From the NCBI GenBank assembly GCA_013350285.1, contig JAAXWG010000004.1:124001-188000 (forward strand): a stretch of DNA of 64,000 nucleotides. Direction: 5' to 3'. The position numbers and the translations under genes were made by a program. Origin of the DNA: Candidatus Altimarinota bacterium (GTDB lineage: Bacteria; Patescibacteriota; Gracilibacteria; BD1-5; UBA6164). Positions 4,050 through 20,849 of this stretch are shown one piece after another. Position 1 is the stretch's first letter, and the number at the start of each line of letters is the position of its first letter. The notes under the pieces are model-generated. The model was given only the letters and a program-made list of their open reading frames with translations, made no database searches and was not told where the DNA came from.

Positions 4050-5576
4050 TTAGTATTTACTTTCTTTAGTATTTATTTTTTTATAAAATTGAGAAAAACT
4101 TATCTTTTTTTCATACAGATAAGTTGCTAAATCTTTTTCAATGTATCTCCAATGCCAAGGTTCTTTTTCATATCCATCAATTTCAACTCCGTTTTGATAG
4201 CTATTATGAAATCAATAGAGATGGGCATTTTCTTTTAACCAAAGAAAATAAGAATTAAGCTCTTTTTTACTTAAAAATTCTTTTTCTGTTGTTGTTTCCC
4301 AAAGGTCTATAGCGAGACCACTTTGATGCTCTGAGTATCATGGCTTTGAACAAAGAGTATCAGGACAAGCATTTGCTTTTATTTGCATTTGATGAAGATA
4401 ACTTCTATATCCACTTACAACGGCAATTTTAACTCAAAATTTTGTGTAAAAATCTTTACCCATTTCATCAAGAGCAACAAGAGCCTCTTTTCTAAGCATT
4501 TGTCATCATTTTATATCTTTTATATAATTTCCTCGTATTCTTGTAAGAGTATCTGGAATGTAATCAATTTTTTTAAAAGAAGTTCAAATTCATACATATT
4601 TAGTGAGAGAAAAATCACTTATAAAATCAAGTTTTTTGATTTTTTCTAAAGGATCTATTACTTTTTCTTTTTCTATTTCAGGAATTTTTGTATTTTCATC
4701 AATAGAATAATATTTTTTCTCAAATTTTCATTTTTCCAAAAATATTTTTAAAAATCATTTTGTGATATTTTTATATTTTTGGAGTACAAGATTATGTCCA
4801 ATATTTTTTATTTCAAGAAAATAGCTCGTTTCTTTTGGAGCATTTTCATATATTCATTTTCCTTGTTTTAGAGGGATAAGGGGGTCTTTATCTCAATGAA
4901 TTATAAGAAGGGGACTTTTTAAATATTTTATATTTTCCTTATTATTAAATCTTTCAGAAAGAAAAAGATATTTTTGTAAGATAAAACCATACTCTTTTAC
5001 ACTCATTTCAAAAAGAGAAGAGAGAGGAGCTACAAGAATAATTTTATCTACCGTGTGAGATTTACTAAAATTGAGAGCTATTCAGCTTCCTATACTGTAG
5101 GCAAAAATAGTTATATCCGAGTTATCAATCTTTTTTTCTTTTTTTATAAAAGAATAAAAGATTTCTACATATTTTTGTGTATTTTTTCTGTTGGGTGATA
5201 AAGAACTTCATCAAAATCAAGGATAATTTAAGGCCATTACATTATAACCAAAATCTTTTAGGATTTGAATATCATCATAATAATAATTGAGATTTCATCC
5301 ATTTCCTTGAAAATAAAAAATAGTTTTTTCACTTTTATTATCAATAAAAATTCAAGAAATATGTTCTTTTTGAGAAAGAGAGATATCTACATTTTCATAA
5401 TCAAAAGGAGCTGATAATTGTATATTTTCTTCTTTGTCCCATCAAGGAAAAATAAGAGAAGTTTCTATTTTTTCAGCAGATATTATAATGATGAGGTAAG
5501 AAAAAATTATAAGAAAAAGAGGATAGATGAGGTATCTAAATTTTTTATTGCAGATTTTTTTTAAAAGTTTGTTCAT
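4050..5576 (-). CDS. Alpha/beta hydrolase fused to VanY-type D,D-carboxypeptidase
   Basis: 508 residues, membrane-anchored by a segment at residues 14-35. Residues about 40-285 match a BEM46-like alpha/beta hydrolase: an FQGNGGNL oxyanion strand, the serine elbow AYSIGSG, the acid in IHGDKDPLIP and the His in IGHNLVL. Residues about 320-500 match the VanY/LAS peptidase family: SEHQSGLAIDLW (metal His and Asp, about residue 410) and EPWHWRY (metal His, about residue 475). The VanY part would trim peptidoglycan stem peptides outside the membrane. The two activities are normally separate genes. The 5' end overlaps the upstream methyltransferase gene by 32 nt. Confidence 0.85.
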
Positions 5577-6684
5577 ATTTTTTAGAGTAAAAATAACAAA
5601 GTTCATTTCCATTATAGAGTTTTCTATTTTTATATTCCTGAGAATTGAGAATAAAGTTTCATCATTGATATGAGCTAATTATTCATCAAGAAAGTTCATC
5701 ATTGTTTTTTAAGAAATTATCTATTTTTTTATACAGTTCATCAATGTTTTCATCTTTTAGTCTGAGTCAGTAGGGGGGATTTGAGATAATTGTTCATGCT
5801 ATTTTTTCTTTTGAAAAATCTGTAAAATCTTTTTTTTCAAAAATAATTTCATTTTCAAGCCCCGCTTTTATTGCATTGAGTTTTGCTTTTTCAATTATTT
5901 CAGCATCCTTATCATATCAAAATATTTGATATTTTTGAGTATATTCTTTTTTTATTGCTTCTTCTTTTTCTTTTTTCAAAAATTCTTTGTCATACCAAAA
6001 CCATTTCTCAAAAGCAAAATTTCTTTTGGCTCAAGGGGCTTTATTTTTTGCTATCATAAGAGCTTCTATAAGTATTGTCCCACTTCCACAAAAAGGATCA
6101 TAGAGTGCTTCTTGAAATCTCCAATTTGAAAGTAAGACAAGACTTGATGCAAGATTTTCCTTGATAGGAGCTTCTCAAGTCATAATCCTATATCCTCTCT
6201 TATGAAGAGCTTCTCCTGAACTATTGAGAAGTATTTTACAATCATTTTCTTGAAAAAGTATTTGTATTTCACATTTTTCAATAGAATCATCCTCTCGTAT
6301 AAATTTTCAACTTTTATCATTTAATACATCTATAATAGCTTTTTTTCAAATTTTTTGAATTGCTGGTTCTGATGATAAATCTGATTTTATAGTTTTTGCA
6401 TTGACAATGATAGGAGCATTTTTGGGGATATATTTTTTCCAGTCTATATTACTAACGAGGGCATAAAGATTGTCAAAATTTGAAATGGAATCTTTTTCTT
6501 TTAGCACAAGATAAAGCTTATTTCCTATACGACTCCAAAGATTTATTCTTGCAAGTAAAGTATCTTCTCAGGAAAAAAGTATAATTCTATCTTTTACTTC
6601 TATAATTTTTCCTCCTTGTTTTTCTATTTCTTTTTTTGCAAGTGATTCAACTCAAGCAATTGTTGTAAGTGCAAGTTTAAGCAT
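5545..6684 (-). CDS. THUMP-type rRNA/tRNA N-methyltransferase (RlmL-like)
   Basis: 379 residues. The N-terminal half (about 1-160) looks like the THUMP RNA-binding module, opening with LALTTIAGVESLAKKEIEKQGG; the C-terminal half is a Rossmann methyltransferase with YDPFCGSGTILIEA (motif I, about residues 205-218) and the catalytic NPPYG near residue 305, whose Gly is a TGA codon. NPPY is the signature of exocyclic-amine N-methylation, as in RlmL or Trm11/TrmG10. The target nucleotide cannot be decided from sequence. The 3' end overlaps the next gene by 32 nt, suggesting coupled translation. Confidence 0.88.
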
Positions 6685-6926
6685 TTTTTTGTTTTAAAAA
6701 TTAGTTTACTAGAAAGTAGACTAACAGAATTATTTTTTTCTTCAAGTATTTTTTTAAAAATGATTTTGATTTTGATTTTGATTTTTTTACTTTCTCTTTT
6801 TTTTGACAAAAGAATATAAAAAAAGATAATCCTATTATTATTTTTAAATTTATTTTTCTAAAATAATAGAGAAAAGTTAATACTTTATTCATCTTCTCTA
6901 AAATTTTACCTTAAAAACCTTTTTTT
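6685..6926. other. AT-rich spacer upstream of the pilin gene
   Basis: 242 nt with no convincing gene. A minus-strand open frame of 63 codons exists at 6701-6892, but its translation is a hydrophobic stretch plus a KSKSKSK run produced by a tandem GATTTT hexamer (about 6763-6786); this looks like low-complexity DNA. The pilin promoter should lie here, but no clear -35/-10 pair stands out. Confidence 0.4.
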
Positions 6927-8447
6927 ATGAAAAAATTAAAAAATAATAAAAACCAAGCTTTTACCCTCGTAGAACTCATTGTTGTCATCACTATCCTAGC
7001 AATCCTCTGAAGTATAGCCTTTATCTCACTCCAGTGATATTCTGCTGATGCAAGAAACTCTAAAAGAATCAGTGATATTGCTTCTATAGAAGGAGCAATG
7101 AGTAGTCAAATTGCTAAAGGACAAAGTATACTTTCTTTTGCATCCTGAACGACAGAAAATAGACTTAGTAATCCAAGTATAGGGTGAACAAATAGTACTA
7201 CTGGTACTGACTATGATGCTGGAAATGTAAATTATTCTACACTTTCTGTAAAATCAAGTGATTTCCAAGATCCAAGTGGAAATAGATCCTATGTAATAGG
7301 GGTAACAACAAGAAAAAATTGAAAACATGAACTTGTTGCTACTATGGAACAATGAGGAGGCTCTAAAATAGCGAGAGTTATCGGTGATTATTCACAAAGA
7401 ATAATAGCTAATACTACGGTAGCTATACAAACAGGTTCTACTCTTAAATTGCTAACAATAACAAATCCTGCAGATATCAATAAATTTTTTCCTGCAGATA
7501 CAGTAATAACAAATGGAATAAGCCCAATAGCAAGAACTATCACAAAAATATCATCTGATGGAAGAACCATTACCCTGAGTGGTGATGTTCCGACTAATGC
7601 AACAACACTCAGCCTTAATGCAACAGAAACGGAAGGTCTTATCCAATGACAAAATGGAACATCAACAGGGGTAGTAGTTGATGGACAAATATTTCTTGCT
7701 TATAGTTCAAGCTCAAGCAGTAGTTCATCATCATCAAGTTCTTCTTCTTCAAGTTCATCCTCATGAGGATGATATGCGAGCTGTACAAGTACTTGACAAA
7801 TACTTTCAGCTTCAAGTACTTACCCATGATGTGATACTGCAGATATAGTTGTATGTGCTTGAACTGGAATTGGATATACACTATCTGCTTGTAATGTAGG
7901 AGCAACTACCGCTAGTACAGATTGGACAATATCAAGATGACAATACTTCCAATGGGGAAGGAATAAATGATTTACTTATGGAGATACGAGCCAACAACCA
8001 ACGACTATAGCAGGAAGTGTTGGGCTCAATGCAGGAACAGATACATACTGATTTGTATGGAATGTATCACTTCCAAGTCCATACACTTGGGCAAATAGTG
8101 ATATAACTAATAACTGGTGAAATACGACAAATACAGCAATAGCAAGACAATGACCATGTGCAAGTGGCTATCATGTACCAAGTAATCCAGAATGGGTATC
8201 TCTCCACTCAGCATGATGATGGGGAACAAATGGAGCAACTATGCAAACAGCTCTTAAACTTCCTTTCGCAGGCTACCGTGATTGGGGTAATGGTGCTTTC
8301 GGCGATGGAGGTTTTGACGGCTACTACTGGTCTAGCTCACCTAATGGTACTATCGGGTATTACTTGACCTTCTATTCTAGCTATGTTTATCCTAGCGGTA
8401 GTGATCATCGTGCTCTCGGTTTCTCTGTGAGGTGTTTCAAAAACTAG
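6927..8447 (+). CDS. Type IV pilin-like protein with C-terminal FISUMP/C-lectin-like variable domain
   Basis: 506 residues. Residues 1-35 are a class III prepilin leader: a short basic stretch, then A|FTLVELIVVITILAIL with the Glu5 of the mature pilin, processed by the prepilin peptidase encoded at 10548. A globular pilin-like region follows, then a pure 20-Ser linker (7704-7763), then a Cys-containing domain ending LPFAGYRDW ... GYYWSSSP ... GFSVRCFKN. That ending is the hallmark of the FISUMP-type (C-type-lectin-like) domains that act as targets of diversity-generating retroelements. In the last 60 codons all 11 Gly are GGN and none TGA, unlike the rest of the gene, and C-ending codons are enriched. 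No reverse transcriptase lies in this window. Confidence 0.85.
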
Positions 8448-8910
8448 GAAAGATATAACCCCGGGGTTAAAAAGCTCCCAACCCCGGGGTTTAATATTTG
8501 CCTCTTTGTTCTCTTTGATAGTCGTTATAAAAAAGAGAAATCTTTTAAATTGAGTTTATTCTTGGTTTAAAAGATTTTTTCTTATTTTCTAAACGGTTGT
8601 GAAGAAAATAAGGGGGGGTATTTATTAAGATCTAAGACTGGTCTTTATATTTTTTGTTTTATCGTTTCTTAGAATGGAGAATATAAATCTAAGAAATATA
8701 TTTTATTGCTTATTTTAAGACCGGTCTTAGAAAATTGAAAAACTAAATCTTTGTAATTCCTGTACCCCTCTCTGGTATAAATTTCAACAAGAATCTATTA
8801 AAATAGGCAAAATATTATTTAAAAAATAGTTTGATTCATTTAAAATGAATTGATTTTATAAAAGACTTTTTTATAATATTTTTATTATTTTATTTATAAA
8901 CAATTATATT
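8448..8910. repeat. Repeat-rich spacer after the pilin gene
   Basis: No gene seen. It holds a pair of AACCCCGGGGTT palindromes (8457-8468 and 8480-8492), which may also terminate the pilin transcript because they can fold together. It also holds a pair of AAGACYGGTCTT palindromes (about 8633-8647 and 8716-8730) about 70 nt apart. Both palindromes recur inside coding sequence near 14.0-15.6 kb. The frr promoter should be near 8830-8905 but was not resolved. Confidence 0.75.
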
Positions 8911-9456
8911 ATGTTGGAAAAAGCACAAGAATGAGTAAAAAAAGCTCTTCATCATTTAGAAGCAGAATTTTCAAAACTTCAGCTTGGGAGAGCAAATCCA
9001 AATCTTGTAGAAGGAGTTTTGGTAGAACAATATGGTATGACTCAGCCAGTAAAAAATTGTGCGAGTGTAAATATTCTTGATAATCAAACTCTTTCTATAC
9101 AACCTTGGGATAGAGGACTTATTCATAGCATTGCAAAAGCTATTACAGAAGCTTGACTTTGACTTAATCCTCAAACTATGGCAGATAGTGTACTTATAAG
9201 AATTCCTGCTCTTACAGAAGAAAGAAGAAAGGAAACAACAAAGATAGCAAAAAGAATGTCAGAAGATGCAAAAGTGGGAATAAGAAATATGAGGCAAGAA
9301 ACTCTTAAAGATATCAAAAAAGGAGAAGAAAATGATGAGCTTTCAGAAGATGATGTAAAAATGTATGAAAAAGATCTTCAGAAAATGGTAGATGATGCCA
9401 ATAAAAAAATTGATGAAATGACAAAGAAAAAAGAGGAAGATATAATGAGGGTGTAG
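8911..9456 (+). CDS. frr: Ribosome recycling factor
   Basis: 181 residues, standard RRF length. With elongation factor G it splits post-termination ribosomes. Seen: the N-terminal helix with LGRANP (in the family ...RTGRA.P), the domain II strand ending in SIQPWDR, and the C-terminal signature RIPALTEERRKE followed by AKVGIRNMRQE. Gly residues in QEGVKKAL and EAGLGLNP are TGA codons. A strong terminator follows, so it is probably monocistronic. Confidence 0.97.
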
Positions 9457-9488
9457 AAAAATTATAGTTTTATAAATAATCATAAAGT

Positions 9489-9541
9489 AAAAACACAAGA
9501 ATAAATCCAAGTTACAGCTTAGATTTATTCTTGTGTTTTTT
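9489..9541. terminator. Intrinsic terminator after frr
   Basis: 19-bp perfect stem (AAAAACACAAGAATAAATC and its complement) with a 14-nt loop and T-runs on both strands, between the convergent frr and the minus-strand gene ending at 9562. Confidence 0.9.
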
Positions 9542-9561
9542 ATAGATTCAAAATTTATATT

Positions 9562-10129
9562 TTATAATATAGATAAAAAGGAGTATATATATAGTAGAAA
9601 CTATTCCTAATGCTATCCATAAAGTATTTTCAATATTTATACTATCTGTACTTGTTTTATTTTCTTCAATTGTTTTGTTTGTAACTAATTTTACTTTTTG
9701 CTCCTCTTGGGGAATAGAATCTATAAGGTTTCATGTACATCAAGGGAGTTCTTCCCAAATTGATTTTTTTTCAGTATCTATTTTTATAGCAAAATTTTCT
9801 TGAATATAAAATTTTCTAATAGTAAAATAATAAGAAATGTCTTTTAAGAGAGGTATCTTAGAACCTTTAAGACAGGTTTCATGTGTTACAGTAACAGTTT
9901 TACCATCTGGTGATTCATGAAATTTCTGATACATTTCTTTAGGTGTAGCAGTTGTTATATTATAATAATTGTAATAATCATCTCGTACAATCATAAGCCA
10001 ATATTTTTCACATTCCGCCTCACCAATTTTCCATTGATATAATATTTTCCCAAGAATTTTACATTCTACTTTATTCTCTATCCATTCTTCAGGTGGTGGC
10101 ATTGCAGAAACTTGAAAAATAAATTTCAT
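9562..10129 (-). CDS. Unknown protein with C-terminal membrane anchor
   Basis: About 188 residues, starting MKFIFQVSAMPPPEEW and ending in a hydrophobic anchor (ENTLWIALGIVSTIYIYSF). Conserved-looking features are Cys in VECKILG, AECEKYW and HETCLKG, which may pair. No family recognised. The reading frame stays open to a TTG at 10198, with another ATG at 10162, but a possible promoter (TTGAGT then TATACT, about 10170-10198 on the minus strand) overlaps that extension, so the ATG at 10129 is preferred. Confidence 0.65.
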
Positions 10130-10502: not shown

Positions 10503-10547
10503 ATTATTTTTTTATAATACTTGCACTATTTCTTAAATGAAGAATAT

Positions 10548-11564
10548 ATGCAGGTATTTTTTTTACTGAGTTTATTTATTCTTTGACTTCTTTTTTGAAG
10601 TTTTGCCTCTGTTATAATCTATCGTTTACAGTCTTGAGAGAAATGAGTTTTTTTATGAAGAAGTCATTGTCAAAGCTGTAATAAACTTCTTTCTTTTCTT
10701 GATCTTGTTCCTTTATTTTCATATATTTTTCATAAATGAAAATGTGCTTATTGTAAAAAAACAATTTCTTACATATACCCTCTTCTTGAAGTTTCTATGG
10801 GACTTATTTTTATGCTTATAGGAAAATATCTTATAGATTTCCCACTTCTTATAATGGGTGATAAAATAACTCTTATCAAGCTTGGCTTTCTCCTTATAAT
10901 AGCCTTTATTACGATTATATTTGTATTTTATGATATATTATTTCTTGAAATTCCTGAAAGTATATTGTTTATAGGAATATTTATTACTTTTATTTTTCTT
11001 GCATTTAATACACTTTTCTTAGATTTACATTTTTATGATTATTCTTTTGTTATTTGAATAAATAGCTTATCTTATACTTCTCTTTTCTTGTCTTTTTTTA
11101 TTTTAGTTTGATTTTATGTCATTATGCTTGGAGAAATGAAAGAAATTTATGACATTCTTCTTTTGCTGACTCTTGGAGCTATAATTTTTACTTTTAAGAG
11201 ATATTTTTATGATGATATACTTTCTATTCCTCTTTTTTCTTGAATTATAGCAAGTTTACTTGTCTTTACATTTTTCTTTTTACAAATTGTTGTAAGTGGA
11301 GGGAAATGGATGGGAGGAGGAGATTTAAGGATAGCAGTTTTTATGGGGCTTATTCTTTGAATGGAAAAAATTATATATGGTATTTTAGCAACTTATATAC
11401 TTGGAAGTTTTGTTGGTATAGGAATTGTTATTTTTCAAAAAATAAAATATCCTCATAAAAAAGTAAATACAATGATTCCTTTTTGACCATTTTTGGGTTT
11501 AGCTACTTTTTTAACCCTTTTTTATACTCCAGAGATACAAAAAATATTTTCTTTTTATTTATAA
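10548..11564 (+). CDS. pilD: Prepilin peptidase (leader peptidase / N-methyltransferase)
   Basis: 338-residue polytopic membrane aspartyl protease that cleaves and methylates type IV prepilins such as the one at 6927. Seen: the N-terminal GLLFGSFASVIIYRL, a cytoplasmic zinc-binding loop with CQSC and CAYC (about residues 40-73), the first catalytic Asp in FYDILFLEIPES, and the GGGD motif (second catalytic Asp) in WMGGGDLRIAVFMG. About eight hydrophobic segments. Six or more conserved Gly are TGA. Slightly longer than typical enzymes because of an extra hydrophobic stretch between the two Asp motifs. Confidence 0.95.
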
Positions 11565-12513: not shown

Positions 12514-13016
12514 ATTGCTTCAAATTCTTTTTCTTCTCACTCAAATTTAAAAAAAATTGTAGGATTCTTGAGATTTTCATAAATTTTTCTTAGTTTACTC
12601 GTTTCTATTTGGATACTTTTTTGAGCATTTCAAGGATTAAAAATAAAATATTTAAAATCAAATATTTCTTTATCTACAAAAAAAGGAATTTCTTCATTTG
12701 TAAATCAAAAGGGAGGAATACATCCGATAGTTCATCAAATTTCTTTTGTAATTTCTTCTCCTGTCGCAAAACGAATATCTTTTGTTCCAAACTGACTTTT
12801 GAAATTTCTTGCTTTTATATCTTTATCTCCAAGAGTTGTTACAAGATAGTATTTTCCTTTTGCATGAAAAACTATATTTTTACTTCCTATTCATTCCAAT
12901 CATTGTTTTTCTCTCAATTCTTTTGAATGTTCGCAACTTGTTGATGCTTCATGATTTATTTCTTGATAAGAAATATCAAGTGTAACAAGGATTTTTTTTA
13001 TATTTTCGTAAAGCAT
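12498..13016 (-). CDS. YbaK/ProX-type aminoacyl-tRNA deacylase
   Basis: 172 residues. Members hydrolyse mischarged tRNAs (Cys- or Ala-tRNA-Pro) in trans. Seen: the strand KNIVFHAKGKYYLVTTLGDKDIK with the substrate-pocket Lys, the RFATGEEI segment, and the signature EIGGTIGCIPPFGF (the family GxVxPFG), followed by FVDKEIF and FNPGNAQKSIQIE. Gly codons of GGTIG and PPFG include TGA. The zinc-free YbaK fold and length fit well. Which amino acid is edited is not evident. Confidence 0.88.
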
Positions 13017-13059
13017 AATTTTTATTTTAGAGAATAATTTTTAAAAATACTTAAAAAAT

Positions 13060-13788
13060 TTAAACGATTTGTATATTTTTAAATATATCTTGAAAAACTT
13101 GTATTGCAAGAGTTTGATTGATAAAAAAAGGAGAGCTTGCAACAGTGAGAAAATCTACATTTTCAAAATGTCTCAAAATAAACTCTTTCTTTTTATTATA
13201 TTCTATATAATCAAGTTCTGGAGCAAAAAAATCAAGATCAAGATTGAGAATATTAGCATTATAATTTTTTTCTAAACTTTTGTCATCTCGTATTTGTATA
13301 ATATCTTGTATAAGTCATAATTCTCTTGCTGGAAAAATATAATTCCCGACATTGAGTTCAAAATTGGTATAATGAAAAATTTTTTCTAAATCATTTTTAT
13401 TATTTGAAGAAAGGATATTTATAGGAATTCGCATATCTGAATGTGCATCAATATGAAGAAGGATATTTCAATTTTCTGTAATAATTTTTTCTTTTTTCGC
13501 AAGAAACCAAAAGAAAAAAGCATGATTGTGATTATCAAAAAGATAACATTTTTTTATTTTTCATTTATATAAAAAATCCATTTCATAAAAATTTTTAAGT
13601 CCTGTTGCACTTATGAGTACATCATCAAAATCAAAATCTTCAAAGACTATTTGATTTCCAAGCTTAATTTCTTGAAGTGAATGAATTTTTTTTAAACTTG
13701 GAACAAAAAGTTTTTTATTTGTTTTTTGTTCATAAGAAAAAGCATTATTACCAAGAGGATTTTCAATATAAAAAGGAGTTTTATACAT
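13060..13788 (-). CDS. UPF0489-family protein
   Basis: 242 residues. Seen: DNHNHAFFFW, then LLHIDAHSDMRIP and later ILNLDLDFFAPE; His and Asp clusters of this form (HIDAHSD, DLDFF) match the arginase-like metal-binding pattern of the UPF0489 family. It is probably a metal-dependent hydrolase of unknown substrate. The N-terminus (about 75 residues) holds NPLGNNAFSYEQ and is less typical. Single gene, divergent from the zinc-ribbon gene that follows. Confidence 0.75.
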
Positions 13789-13902
13789 AAGCTATTTATT
13801 TAATTTTTTTTATATTAATAAATCTTTTCTAATTTCAAAAATATAATTTCTCTTTTTTATAAATTATCTATAATAAATGAGTTTATAATAAATAAATTTA
13901 TT

Positions 13903-15981
13903 ATGTTTCAAAACGAAAGAGTCATACAAACAAAAATTTGTAAACATTGTGGATCAAGTTTTGATATCACAGATAAAGATTTGGAATTTTATGAAAAAGT
14001 AAGCCCAGTATTCCCAAACCCCGGGGTTTCTTTTTCAACCCCGGGGTTAAAACAAGCTTTCCCCCCAAGGGAGAAAGAAGTGGAAGAAAATATCACCCTC
14101 AATTGAGGGGGAATAAAAGAGGGAGCTGTCATTCCTGCGAAGGCAGGAATCTATGAAAATGAAAAAATACCTTCTAATGATTCTGAAACATCCCCCAGAG
14201 GATACTCTCTTGCTTCGCAATTCACCTTAAGTTCAGAATGACAATTTTTAGATCAAAGACCGGTCTCTTCAAAAGAGACTAGTCTTAAAGACCTATGAAA
14301 CGAAAAAGTAAGACATCTCATACCTTCTCCTACACTTTGTCCAGATTGCAGACAACAAAGAAGACTTAGTTTTCGTAATGAAAGAAAACTTTACAAAAGA
14401 AAATGTGATGCAACTGAAAAAAATATTATTACTATGTTTTCTCCTGATAAGCCTTATAAAGTGTATGGTCAAGATGCTTGGTGGAGTGATAATTGGGATG
14501 TCTTAGATTATGGTCGTGATTTTGATTTTAATCGTCCATTTTTTGAGCAATTTAATGATATATTAAAAGAAATTCCTCATTTTCATAATGCAGTTGCAAA
14601 AAATATTAATAGTGATTATGTAAATTATTCAGCAAATACTGCAGACTCTTATCTTATATTTGCTTCAAGCCAAAATAAGTCTTGTTATTATTGTCGTTGG
14701 GTAATGAATAGCGAAAAACTTATGGATTCAAATAATACAATCAATTCTGAGGAGTGTTATTATTGTATAGATGTTAATAATAGTGTTTGAGATTTTTATT
14801 GTATTTCATGTAAAGATACAGCTTTTTGTTATAGCTCTTATGATTTAATAGGATGCCAAAATTGTATTGCTTGTTCTAACTTGAGAAATAAACAATATTG
14901 TATCTTTAACGAAGAATATTCAAAAGAAAAGTATAATGAAGAAAAAGAAAAATATAAAAATTATGAAACCCTTTTGAAACAAGTTCTAAAAAAATCAATT
15001 CATAAAAATGTTAATCTTACAAATACACAAAATTCTTTTTGAGATTATCTTATAAATTCAAAAGATTGTAATCAATGTTTTGATGGAGAGAAGCTTGAAA
15101 ATTGTAAGTATGTTTCTAACACACTTGATATGGATAGTGCTCAAGATATGGATTTTCAAGCATTTGATACACATTTTTGTTATGAATGTCTTTGAACTGA
15201 ATATACAAGTAATGCTTTATTTTCCTATGCTACTCTTGAAGGTTCTTCAAAAGTTCTTTATTCATTTTGAACTTTTTCTTCTTCAAATATTTTTGGGTGT
15301 GTATATGTAAAAAATAAATCCTATTGCATCCTCAATAAACAATATACGAAAAGTGAATATGAAGCTCTTGTTCCAAAAATTATTTCTCATATGATGAAAA
15401 CATGAGAATGGTGAGAATTCTTTCCAAGTTCTCTTTCTCCTTTCTGATATAATGAAACAGTTGCTCAAGAGTATTTTCCAATTAATCCCCCAGTCCTTAC
15501 GGACATCCCCCTTATTAAGGGGGACAGACAAAACGGAGTTGAGGCAGGGGGATTTTATTATATTGATAGAAAATGAAATACTTATAAAACTTTACAAGAA
15601 GCTGGAGAGAGACCGGTCTTTAAATACAGCACCTACGAAACTCCTTTTCCTAAGGTAGAAAAAATAATTCCTGCAAGTAAGCTTCCTGAAAATATTACAG
15701 ATATTCCTGATGATATTTTGAATTGGGCTATTGAATGTGAAATTACTAAAAAGCCTTTTAAAATTATTCCTCAAGAATTAGATTTTTATAGAAAACATAA
15801 TCTTCCCATACCAAGAAGACATCCAGACCAAAGACATCTTGATAGAATGAGTTTAAGAAATCCAAGACATCTTTATTCAAGGAATTGTGATAAATGTGGA
15901 AAAGAAATACAAACAACTTATGCTCCTGAGAGACCTGAGATAGTCTATTGTGAAGAGTGTTATAATAAGGAGATGTATTAA
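13903..15981 (+). CDS. Cys-rich zinc-ribbon protein, paralog 1, with in-frame palindromic insertions
   Basis: 692 residues. Order: N-terminal ribbon half CKHCG (residues 14-18), an anomalous Pro/Ser-rich stretch (about 38-135), ribbon half CPDC with RQQRRLSFRNERKLYKRKC, a long middle rich in CxxC pairs with a repeated LRNKxYCIxNxxYxKxxYE motif, and a C-terminal ribbon CDKCGKE ... YCEEC. The anomalous stretch is encoded by palindromic repeats that keep the frame open (CCCCGGGG pair, CCCTCAATTGAGGG, ATTCCTGCGAAGGCAGGAAT, AGACCGGTCT); another cluster lies at about 15485-15620. Paralog 2 at 18969 lacks most of these. A structural or nucleic-acid-binding role is possible; function unknown. Confidence 0.85.
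14016..14048. repeat. CCCCGGGG palindrome pair inside coding sequence
   Basis: AAACCCCGGGGTTT at 14016-14029 and AACCCCGGGGTT at 14037-14048, read in frame as NPGVSFSTPGL. The same pair occurs in paralog 2 (19073-19105) and, with a slightly longer gap, outside genes at 8457-8492. Confidence 0.9.
14096..14154. repeat. Two palindromic repeats inside coding sequence
   Basis: CCCTCAATTGAGGG (14096-14109; a longer copy at 20248-20265) followed by ATTCCTGCGAAGGCAGGAAT within 14128-14154, a REP-like repeat also found at 48113-48138 and, as a variant on the other strand, at 51869-51893. Both are translated in frame here (NGGG and VIPAKAGIY). Confidence 0.85.
14257..14285. repeat. AGACCGGTCT / AGACTAGTCT pair inside coding sequence
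   Basis: AGACCGGTCT at 14257-14266 and AGACTAGTCT at 14276-14285, also at 15608-15617 in the same gene and as a pair in the spacer at 8633-8730. Read in frame as RPVSSKETSL. Confidence 0.75.
15485..15617. repeat. Second repeat cluster inside paralog 1
   Basis: CCCCCTTATTAAGGGGG at 15507-15523 sits inside a G/C-rich block (ATCCCCC to GGGGGATTT, about 15485-15553), followed by AGACCGGTCT at 15608-15617. The block is translated without interruption. At the same place paralog 2 carries an unrelated G/C-rich block (about 20380-20485). Confidence 0.75.
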
Positions 15982-16186
15982 GAGTGAAGAGTGAAAAAGA
16001 TTAAAAGTATAAAAGACTTGTAGAGATAAATTTGTGAATTGTATGAAAATAAAAAAATAGCAGAGAATAAAAACTTTTATTTAAAAAAATTATTATTTAA
16101 TTATTCAAAAATATTTATACTTTTTTATTTGATAAAAAGTAAAAAAGATTACAATTAAATTACTTTAATTTTTTAGCTAAGAATCT
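15982..16186. other. Spacer between paralog 1 and the protease gene
   Basis: 205 nt without a gene. The first 40 nt (GTGAAAAAGATTAAAAGT core) resemble the sequence just after paralog 2 (about 20855-20900), so the duplication that made the paralogs seems to have included the 3' flank. Confidence 0.5.
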
Positions 16187-18901
16187 ATGAATAATTTTAA
16201 AAAGATGAGTTTTTTCTTGGTATTAATTTTAGGATTTTTACCTATTGTAAAGGCAAGTGAATCTAAAATTAATATTTCACCTATTGTACAAGTGGTATCT
16301 TACTATGATATTTATGGAAAATATCCGAGGATGATGGGGCGGGGATCTGCTTCCATAATAAATAATAATGGAGTAATAATATCAAATGATCATGTAGTAG
16401 ATGATGGAAAATGAGCTTTATCAAGTGCTTTTTCTATTTGTATCACAAAAGAAATAAATCAAAAACCAGTATGTGACTATACAGCAAGTTTAATTGCGAG
16501 AGATGATAAACTTGATATATCTATATTAAAAATAGATCCAATAGATATTTATGGTAACAAAGTAGATTATTCAAAATTTGCAACAATAGATATAGATTTT
16601 GATTATGAACCAAAAAATCAAGATGAAACCATTGCCATAGGCTATCCTTGGATTGGAGCTGATACAATAAGTGAAACAAAAGGAATAGTGAGTGGAATAA
16701 GTGAATATAATGGGTACAAATATATAAAAACAGACACTTTAATCGCTTGAGGAAATTCATGAGGAGCATTTGTGAAAAATGGAAAATTGATAGGAATTCC
16801 TACTTTTTGAATAGGATGGGGAGATAGTATGTGATATGCTCTCAGTATCAAGGAGGCAAAAAGTTTTATACAAGAAAATATAAATGGCGAAGTAAAACAA
16901 AATATGATGACAAAGATGATAGATTTCAATAAATATAGAAGTATGATTGAAGATATTAATACATCCCTTGTTTTAAAGGATGATATTTTCAATATAAAAT
17001 TTCCAAGTGATTATCAGGTTTCAGATTATACAAAAAATAATTATTTTTCACTTACTTTAAAAAAACAAAAAGATATAGGAGTAAATTACCTCACTATATA
17101 TGTAGAAAAAACACCAAGTCTTGATACAGAAAGAAAAAAATTTTATTATCTTGAGCAATCATGATTTTATTATAAAGATTGGCAAAAATTACTCAAAAAA
17201 ACTATTGGAGGAGTTGAATTTTTTTATCCTGTAGAAAAAACAGATTTATCAAATGGAGAATCTTCTTGGGGAAAATGGTATAAAGCAATAGTAAATGGTC
17301 ATATTATAACAATAAGTCTAGAAGCCCCTTTTTATGATGAAAAAAGAAATAAAGAAGTAAGATCTGAAGTAGAAAAAATTCTTGCAGGAATACAATTTAA
17401 TACAGCTAATTTATCTAAGGTACAAAAAAGTTTTTCTACAAATATTCCTCAAATAGATGTAAAATATTCTGATAAAGCAATTATTGATACAGGAAAATAT
17501 AAACTTTATTTTGCAAATAATCTTTATGAATACCTTGATATAAATCTCAATGAACTTATAGAATATAATGGAAAATGAAAAACAGTAAGCGAAATTTACG
17601 ATACTTTACTCAAAGATATTGATACAAGTGAAAAGTCTCTTATCAATTTTAAATGATATGATGGATACATTGTTTGTTCTGATAAATATAGTAATTATTA
17701 TAGTTATTATAACTATTATTATTATATGGGATATTATAATTATGGAAATTATTCTAGTGATGAGTATGGGAATCCAGTAAAAACAAAATCATGTCAGATA
17801 AATATTTATTTTTCTCTTAATGAAGAATTAAATAGACAAAATTATCTTAGTATTGATGTAGTTTCAAAAAGTGAGAATATTGAAAAAAATTTAGAAGAAG
17901 TGATAAATTTTCTTAAAAATAATTTAGAACTAGATTCTCTAGTAGACGAAATAAATATTCCTAATATATTTAAAACTCAGGTAAAACTTAAATTTACGGA
18001 TATTAATAAGCAAACAAAAGAGTATAAAAATTTTCTTTCACTTCTTGTTAAATATAAAGCCATAGAAAATACTGATAAATTTGATGGAAATAAGCCTTTA
18101 AAATGGGGAGAATATCTTTCATTGTATACAAAGTGGATTTATAATTTTGATACAAAAACAGATAAATGTACAAATGAAAATTATGCTTGTAGATTTTCAA
18201 AATATAAAGTTACAATTGAAGGGAAAAAAATAAGTCTTGATACAATATTTAAAAATTTAGAAATTGATTATGATGAATATGTTGATTCTTCTATGATATA
18301 TGAATTTGAAAGAATTTTTAAATATACACTTGCTTGAGTATCTATTGGGGGGTTTACAGATAAAAATCTTTACCTTTTTGAAAGCTTAATAGATGATGAA
18401 AAATATAGTAAAGAAAAAAAGAAAATTCAAGATTTTGATAATAAAATATATGGATTAAAAAAGATAACAATAGCTGATTTTTATACAAATTATTCTACTT
18501 ATTTTATTGTAACAAAAGATAATAGATATTATACAATAAAAGATAAACTTGTTTTAACAGATATTTTTAATGATAAAAAAGTTTCTATAGGGCATAAAAA
18601 AACAGATGTATTCAAAATGAATAAAGAACTTTTTGATGCCTGAGAAAAATATAAATGTGAAGAAAAACAAAACTATAAAGATTATATCTCTTGTTATAAA
18701 CAATATAAACAGGCAATAACTGATATTTATTCAAAATATAATAACTACTATTCAGCTTATTTAGAAGATTATAATTTGTCTTATTATACAGTTTTAAACA
18801 AGGCATCAGCTCTTGAACAAATATTTTCTCAGGTTGATTTCTGACTTTTTGACACAGAACTGGCAAAGAAAAAAGATACAATTATAGAAGAAAATAATTA
18901 A
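16187..18901 (+). CDS. Secreted trypsin-like serine protease with long C-terminal extension
   Basis: 904 residues. A signal peptide (residues 1-23, ending VKASE) leads into an S1-type protease domain of about 220 residues. The triad is visible: His69 in ISNDHVV, Asp110 in DKLDISILKID, Ser191 in GGNSGGAFV. The sequence GxNSGGA resembles DegP/trypsin-like enzymes, but no PDZ domain was seen. The remaining 650 residues are Tyr/Asn/Lys/Asp-rich, with a Tyr-dominated stretch (about residues 505-525) and two Cys pairs; they look like an extracellular adhesion or substrate-binding region. It sits between the two Cys-rich paralogs and ends at a strong hairpin. Confidence 0.88.
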
Positions 18902-18968: not shown

Positions 18969-20849
18969 ATGGAAAAAATAGTAGAAACTCGTATTTGTAA
19001 ACATTGTGGAGCAAGTTTTGATATTACAGATAAAGACTTGGAATTTTATGAAAAAGTAAGTCCAGTATTCCCAAACCCCGGGGTTTCTTTTTCAACCCCG
19101 GGGTTGAAGTTGCTTGAAAACTGAAAAATAAAATATCTTATTCCTCCTCCAACTCTTTGTCCTGATTGTAGACAACAAAGAAGACTCAGTTTTAGAAATG
19201 AAAGAAAACTCTATAAAAGAAAATGTGATTTTAGTGGGAAAGATATTATTTCTATCTATTCTCCAGATAAACCCTATAAAGTATATCATCAAGGTGCTTG
19301 GTGGAGTGACTGATGGGATGCTCTCAATTATGGTCGTAATTTTGATTTCTCTAAAAGTTTTTTTGAGCAGTTTTGATATTTGATGAAAGAAGTACCTCAA
19401 ATATCAATAATGAATGATAATGGAACAGGAAGTGAAAATTGTGAATATTGTCAAGATTTTTGTTTTGGAAAAAATTGTTATTTTTCTATTGCAACATGGC
19501 ATAGTGAAAATCAATATTATTGTGATCAATGTCTTTATGGAAAGGATTTAGTGGATTGTACTCTCGTAAATAATAATTCTTCTGATGTTTATGAATGAAC
19601 TATATGTGATAGTATAAAAAATTGTTTTTATGTTTATTCTTGTATTGATTGTTTTGAGTGTCATGCTTGTTTTGATTTAATTGGATGTCAATTTTGTTAT
19701 GGATCAAACTCACTCAGAAATAAAAAATATTATTTTCTTAATAAGGCTCTCAGTAAAAAAGAATATGAAGATGAAATGAAAAGAATAAAAAAATCCGACA
19801 CTTCAAAATTATTTTCAAATATAAAAAAGTGAAAAATACTTCCAGCAACTATAATAAAAAATTCTCAAAATTGTATTGGAGATAATATTATCAATTCAAA
19901 AAATGTATTTTACTGATTTGATGTAAGTGATGTACAAGATTCAAAATTTGTTTTTCGTCTTAATTCAAATGCAAGAGATTGTTATGATATTCATCAAAGT
20001 GGGGCGACCACACTTGTTTATGAATGACTTACTCCTGATAAAACTCATCACTGATCTTTTATAAGCTGGTGTTGGGAAGGATGCAAGGATATTTATTATT
20101 GTGATAATTGTCATACTTGCTCAAATTGCTTTTGATGCATTTGACTCCGTAATAAATCCTATTGCATCCTCAATAAACAATATACGAAAAGTGAATATGA
20201 AATACTTGTTCCAAAAATTATAGAACATATGATGACTCCCCCTAAATCCCCCTCAATTGAGGGGGAAAGCTGAGCGATAGTGAAGCAGGGGGAGCAAGAG
20301 TGGTGAGAATTTTTTCCAAGTTCTCTCTCTCCTTTTGGATACAATGAAACAGTTGCAAATGAATATTATCCGATAAATACTCCCCCTATCCCTCACCCTT
20401 TCCCCAAAAAGGAGAAAGGGAATAATTCTTGTCTTTTTTCTTTCTCCCTTGGGGGGAAAGATGCCTGAAAGGCAGATAGGGGGACTTTTAACTGGTCTAC
20501 TTATGAAGCTCCTTTTCCTAAGGTAGAAAAAATTATTCCTGCAAGTAAGCTTCCTGAAAATATTGCAGATATTCCTGATGATATTTTGAACTGGGCTATT
20601 GAGTGTGAAGTAACTAAGAAGCCTTTTAGAATAATAAAAGAAGAACTTGCTTTTTATAGAAAACATAATCTTCCCATACCAAGAAGACATCCAGACCAAA
20701 GACATCTTGATAGGATGAGTTTAAGAAATCCAAGACATCTTTATACAAGGAATTGTGATAAGTGTGGAAAAGAAATACAGACAACTTATGCTCCTGAAAG
20801 ACCAGAAATTGTGTATTGTGAAGAGTGTTATAATAGCGAAATTTATTAG
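18969..20849 (+). CDS. Cys-rich zinc-ribbon protein, paralog 2
   Basis: 626 residues, homologous to the protein at 13903 along its whole length; the last about 120 residues are nearly identical (ASKLPENI, then RKHNLPIPRRHPDQRHLDRM, then CDKCGKE and YCEEC). It keeps the N-terminal CKHCG/CPDC ribbon and the CCCCGGGG-pair insertion, but lacks the about 70-residue repeat-coded stretch of paralog 1. It carries other insertions: a CCCCCTCAATTGAGGGGG block (about 20235-20300) and a Pro/Lys-rich block (about 20380-20485), both in frame. The middle part differs more, with many CxxC pairs (CEYCQDFCFG, CHTCSNCFGC). Function unknown. Confidence 0.85.
20248..20265. repeat. CCCCCTCAATTGAGGGGG palindrome in paralog 2
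   Basis: Perfect 18-nt palindrome within a G/C-rich in-frame insertion (about 20235-20300) that paralog 1 lacks at this position (HMMKTGEWG there, a block of about 17 extra residues here). Confidence 0.85.

Follow-up and report, generated by a model that had tools for sequence, protein, structure and literature searches.

A type IV pilin-like gene of a Candidatus Altimarinota bacterium carries a variable repeat of a diversity-generating retroelement and is probably an orphan target

Introduction

In a Candidatus Altimarinota bacterium, a type IV pilin-like gene ends in 60 codons that form the variable repeat (VR) of a diversity-generating retroelement (DGR), and the gene is probably an orphan target whose core was most likely lost recently, leaving the tip frozen. 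In a DGR, a complex of Avd and reverse transcriptase (RT) reverse-transcribes the RNA of a template repeat (TR), making errors at adenines, and the resulting cDNA replaces the VR. Since both TR and enzyme are missing from the assembled genome, the pilin gene looks like a stranded target. The kind of element is itself known; the parts that appear to be new are the pilin carrier, the orphan state and the adenine-avoidance footprint that the element leaves in the codon usage of its target.

In this study, we analysed a stretch of 64,000 nucleotides (the window; positions 124,001 to 188,000 of contig JAAXWG010000004.1), its own genome and the relatives of that genome. An earlier sequence-only reading of the window had proposed the DGR target, and its claims are taken up where the results bear on them.

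The pilin-like gene and its C-terminal domain

The DGR target is an open reading frame on the plus strand (6927..8447) that encodes 506 amino acids and is uninterrupted under code 25, in which TGA specifies glycine (19 such codons). A prepilin cleavage/methylation segment (6945..7022, plus strand; residues 7-32) is matched by Pfam N_methyl at E 1.1e-7, and the same N-terminal motif is matched by TIGR02532 at E 6.9e-6, in keeping with the type IV pilin of the earlier reading. At 10521-11564, some 2 kb beyond the pilin gene, lies a prepilin peptidase-like gene, named by eye.

The C-terminus of the protein matches the Fib_succ_major profile at E 3e-6 with 28.1 bits, which is below the Pfam cut-off of 33.9 bits; the FISUMP/C-lectin fold claimed earlier thus has a profile match, but one of subthreshold score. 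The C-type-lectin-like (FISUMP) domain (7779..8444, plus strand) was modelled with AlphaFold2 (pLDDT 82.8) and compared with solved structures. In a second-look aligner, the solved chains with the best Z scores are mostly adhesins and lectins of the C-type-lectin fold (Z 4-7, all Z < 8), among the aligned chains being Legionella Lcl at Z 7.1 and the DGR variable protein 5vf4 at Z 4.3, both likewise under 8. A Foldseek search of the domain model against the PDB gave nothing significant, and no solved homologues of the domain were found by sequence search. Support for the C-type-lectin reading therefore comes from the second-look aligner together with the FISUMP profile and the alignment. A linker of 20 serines (7704..7763, plus strand; residues 260-279, counted in the translation) precedes the domain. 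The last 60 codons had been described as following this linker; they are indeed distinct, but the serine run lies about 170 codons upstream of the VR and is separated from it by the conserved portion of the FISUMP domain.

A codon-usage switch at the border of the variable repeat

The VR (8262..8447, plus strand) is defined by its homology with a TR from a complete DGR, with differences concentrated at the TR adenines, and by a change point in codon usage. The region had first been placed at 8268-8447; its 3' part is confirmed as VR, but by homology with the relative's TR it starts at about 8262. Codons ending in A account for 203/446 of the upstream codons and for 4/60 in the last 60 codons (p = 7e-10), and the change point falls 58 codons before the stop (0/500 permutations). 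Among the glycines of the gene, TGA is used in 19/49 upstream and in 0/11 of the last 60 codons (p = 0.012), all 11 being GGN as had been noted. The GC content rises from 37% upstream to 47% in the tail.

The switch recurs elsewhere. In 9/9 other VR genes tested, including the second VR-like gene of the same genome, A-ending codons drop 58-64 codons before the stop (0/500 permutations each). The simplest reading of this footprint is that the template has been selected to keep adenines only where variation is wanted, which would leave conserved residues on A-free codons and, in code 25, glycine without TGA. A switch of this kind suggests a template-free way of finding DGR targets that lack a core, and in code 25 it eliminates the reassigned glycine codon as well.

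Adenine-directed differences from the template repeat of a relative

As the genome itself yielded no TR (see below), the DGR system was sought in relatives. The set comprised 194 genomes, the own genome included as the sole member of its genus, and the VR region matches 7/194 of them. One of these, G029, a genome of the same family, carries a complete DGR on its contig 8, consisting of a pilin gene with VR (5571-6992), a TR (from 7771), Avd (8015-8365; NCBIfam DivGenRetAVD, 4.9e-15) and an RT with the motif IGNLTSQ (8368-9594).

The window VR and the G029 TR share 81% DNA identity over 185 bp. Differences occur at 26/59 of the template adenines and at 10/127 of the other bases (p = 2.6e-8), the latter being expected because the sole available TR comes from another genus. 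The changed adenines are replaced by G in 12 cases, by T in ten and by C in four. The TR contains 21 AAY codons, and the window VR differs from them at position 1 in 15, at position 2 in seven and at position 3 in one. When the window VR is taken as the template instead, the excess at adenines is gone (1/34 adenines against 34/148 other bases); the bias is seen in one direction only and is therefore directional. Nine TR/VR pairs in relatives, serving as positive controls, show the same adenine bias; in the G030 pair 18/56 adenines differ against 0/129 other bases, and the TR of G029 differs from its own VR at 20/59 adenines and 1/126 other bases. The TR on contig 25 of G018 aligned poorly to the window and was left out of the evidence.

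These counts support a rewriting of the last 60 codons of the pilin by adenine-directed DGR mutagenesis, and on the strength of the sequence comparisons the tip is taken to be DGR-made. Adenine-directed mutagenesis had been proposed from the window alone, together with an AAY-rich template, and the TR of G029, with its 21 AAY codons, supplies a real template for comparison. The accompanying statement that the region differs only at A is nearly true, but the change of AAC to AGT includes one non-A substitution, and over the whole VR ten of the 127 non-A bases differ.

Absence of a DGR core from the assembled genome

The genome is represented by a 1.28 Mb draft assembly of eight contigs, about 98% complete. 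A relative's DGR RT used as query matches 44/194 genomes and found no DGR-type RT in this assembly. A BLAST search with the VR returned the VR itself and short matches, including one to a FISUMP gene of contig 8, and neither this search nor an A-tolerant IUPAC pattern search of the assembly revealed a TR. The TR leader sequence was likewise not found in it. For Avd there was no match in the assembly at E <= 1, a result that carries little weight as it comes from one short query, a relative's Avd, used without a positive control. The earlier reading had observed that neither RT nor TR is in the window, which is borne out and extends to the rest of the assembly; the whole-genome search for both that it had proposed as a check thus had the outcome named in one half of its own condition for refuting a DGR, the other half being invariance in population reads.

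The genome has a single RVT_1 match, an RT on contig 1 that best resembles phage-defence RTs. It was rejected as a DGR RT, having 732 residues, the motif QGVIASD in place of the IGNLTSQ of the relatives and RT_UG21 as its best PADLOC match. This RT and two genes near it, HamA/HamB (Hachiman)-like by eye, are located at L004:8559-10757 and 12765-16280 (contig 1 of G000, the own genome), and the neighbourhood is possibly a defence island.

The downstream flank

Cassette homology continues for about 165 bp beyond the VR and then ends. A remnant of the VR-TR spacer of the cassette (8492..8612, plus strand) aligns over 120 bp with that of the relative G037 at 81% identity (E 6e-22), and the G029 spacer gives a shorter match. 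The remnant is followed by an frr-like gene, named by eye (8911..9456, plus strand), which lies directly downstream and takes the position expected for TR, Avd and RT if the cassette were complete. With the spacer homology stopping and frr coming next, the locus itself is without a core. The frr-like gene is present in 46/48 genomes of the family. Synteny of pilin and frr was considered and rejected, no VR pilin being found beside frr at the loci read in relatives.

An inverted repeat with a 12-bp stem and an 11-nt loop (8457..8491) begins 10 bp after the VR and is not reached in any of 300 shuffles (0/300); it is a candidate target hairpin and/or terminator. Its palindrome, CCCCGGGG, also occurs on other contigs and, within the window, inside other open reading frames at 14019 and 19076; several relatives' VRs lack an inverted repeat. 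This GC-rich hairpin was consequently not taken to prove a DGR target site. The inverted-repeat element AACCCCGGGGTT constitutes a dispersed palindromic repeat (8457-8491, 14019-14047 and 19076-19104, the latter two inside open reading frames, and further copies on other contigs) in a window with a GC content of 27%.

Other variable-repeat genes in the genome and its relatives

The FISUMP gene on contig 8 of the own genome (L005:5385-6263, approximately 201384-202262) encodes a lipoprotein, as judged by eye from its N-terminus, and switches codon usage 59 codons before its stop. Compared with a TR of a different class, it differs at 35/75 adenines against 33/135 other bases (p 9e-4), a bias weaker than that of the pilin, and its tail is probably a second, older orphan VR.

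Pilin-type N-termini are found on VR-type genes in G029, G018, G040 (four genes), G035 and G030 and at the Sandtown loci L080 and L083, so the architecture recurs. The four pilin-type VR genes of G040 lie on contigs 3 and 4 (L014, L018, L021 and L022), and no RT was found in that genome, which is 79% complete. On contig 16 of G018, the TR leader AGAGCGATAGCGATTTGTTACTGGAAGTTAT occurs shortly after a VR gene (L025:7259-7289), with unrelated sequence directly after it and no TR there. This is possibly the scar of a lost DGR core, and the locus suggests that core loss occurs in this bacterial family. The DGR RT on contig 82 of G037 (L024:2224-3591) contains an insertion of approximately 50-60 amino acids that is not in the G029 RT. 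The viral contigs contained no exact match to the pattern of the VR 3' end and no relative of the domain.

Discussion

We propose the following course of events. In an ancestor, or in cells outside the assembly, a DGR RT with Avd would have copied an A-poor template RNA, misreading template adenines at random, and the pilin gene would have had its 3' end overwritten by the cDNA. Carried by the pilin part, the randomised C-type-lectin surface would be displayed on a pilus, where it may bind partner cells or other ligands with changing specificity. The core would later have been lost, leaving a frozen tip that is now passed on like that of any ordinary gene. Loss of the core is somewhat favoured as the explanation of the orphan state. 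The VR of G029, which stands beside an intact core, has 4/60 A-ending codons, equal to the window VR; any loss must then have been recent, and long decay is disfavoured.

Less probable, though a serious competitor, is the alternative that the VR remains active as a target, served in trans by a TR-Avd-RT core that was not assembled or binned and that perhaps acts on the VR-like gene of contig 8 as well. The undecayed codon usage of the window VR agrees with this as well as it does with recent loss. Several DGR contigs of relatives are short (3-12 kb), and given a draft of eight contigs the core could have been missed even at this completeness. The four VR genes of G040 present the same picture, and remote or core-less targets served in trans have been reported in Thiohalocapsa (PMC10907252). 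Against service in trans, an assembly that is 98% complete holds neither TR, Avd, a fragment of a DGR RT nor a TR leader. Moreover, the two VRs of the genome resemble different classes of TR, so that a single missing core may not explain both.

That the orphan pilin is still hypermutated by an RT and template from elsewhere, supplied for instance by a related cell nearby or by a mobile element, seems improbable; if true, one retroelement would serve several genomes of a community. Less likely still, and largely refuted by the TR/VR comparisons and the codon switch, is horizontal acquisition of the gene tail from a bacterium of different codon usage, unconnected with any retroelement in this lineage. 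The step in GC and the lack of TGA codons would agree with such an origin, but the border coincides with the border of TR/VR homology in the relatives and falls inside one protein domain, the codon switch recurs at a similar distance from the stop in nine other genes, the differences from the TR are at adenines, in positions 1 and 2 of AAY with position 3 spared, and the relatives with such a tail possess their own RT and TR and also use code 25. That a lectin-like binding face has simply been under diversifying selection, with no part played by adenine-directed mutagenesis, is disfavoured and the least probable of all: FISUMP and C-type-lectin domains are binding modules whose binding residues can evolve fast, but selection on amino acids would not spare third positions (1/21 changed), nor would it favour adenines in a separate repeat that adjoins an RT in relatives.

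We thus retain the reading of a DGR-made tip on an orphan pilin whose core has probably been lost. In these reduced bacteria with code 25, DGR targets are frequently type IV pilin-like proteins, an architecture that would place the randomised lectin face on a pilus. The locus also indicates that DGR targets can outlive, or exist apart from, their retroelement. Through the codon switch, the fate of lost DGRs, whether frozen, decaying or served in trans, would become testable in draft genomes that are missed by searches starting from the RT.

Comparison with known systems

A search of the open literature, mostly short of full texts and not extending to the key survey of CPR DGRs (Paul et al. 2017), found no report of a DGR with a type IV pilin as target. 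DGRs in Patescibacteria, their C-type-lectin targets and their adenine bias are already known (PMC8144416). With the Patescibacteria/CPR elements of DGR clade 2 (Roux et al. 2021, PMC8144416), to which it is likened by features and not by placement of the RT in a clade, the present system shares adenine-specific change from TR to VR, a target of probable C-type-lectin fold and, in relatives of the same family, Avd and a DGR RT; unlike them, the genome of the window has a target without an assembled core.

The DGR of Bordetella phage BPP-1, from which the requirement for a downstream hairpin is known (PMC3240598), resembles the present case in that the VR forms the 3' end of the target gene and an inverted repeat follows within a few bases, and in the clustering of target, TR and RT, which is seen here in the relatives. 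Its target is a phage tail protein, whereas here it is type IV pilin-like, and its hairpin has 7-10 bp and a 4-nt GRNA loop (PMC3240598), in contrast to the longer stem and loop of the window hairpin, whose palindrome is dispersed. The fimbrial protein BACOVA_04982 of Bacteroides ovatus (PDB 4eps) has a domain that aligns with the pilin model at Z 5.6 (rmsd 3.2, 124 residues); it belongs to a different pilus system, and the likeness is one of structure alone at Z < 8. The incomplete or remote DGR targets of Thiohalocapsa PB-PSB1 are similar in that VR genes occur without a complete core at the locus (PMC10907252). Several of those cases were explained by a matching TR elsewhere or by structural variants with an intact core, neither of which was found here.
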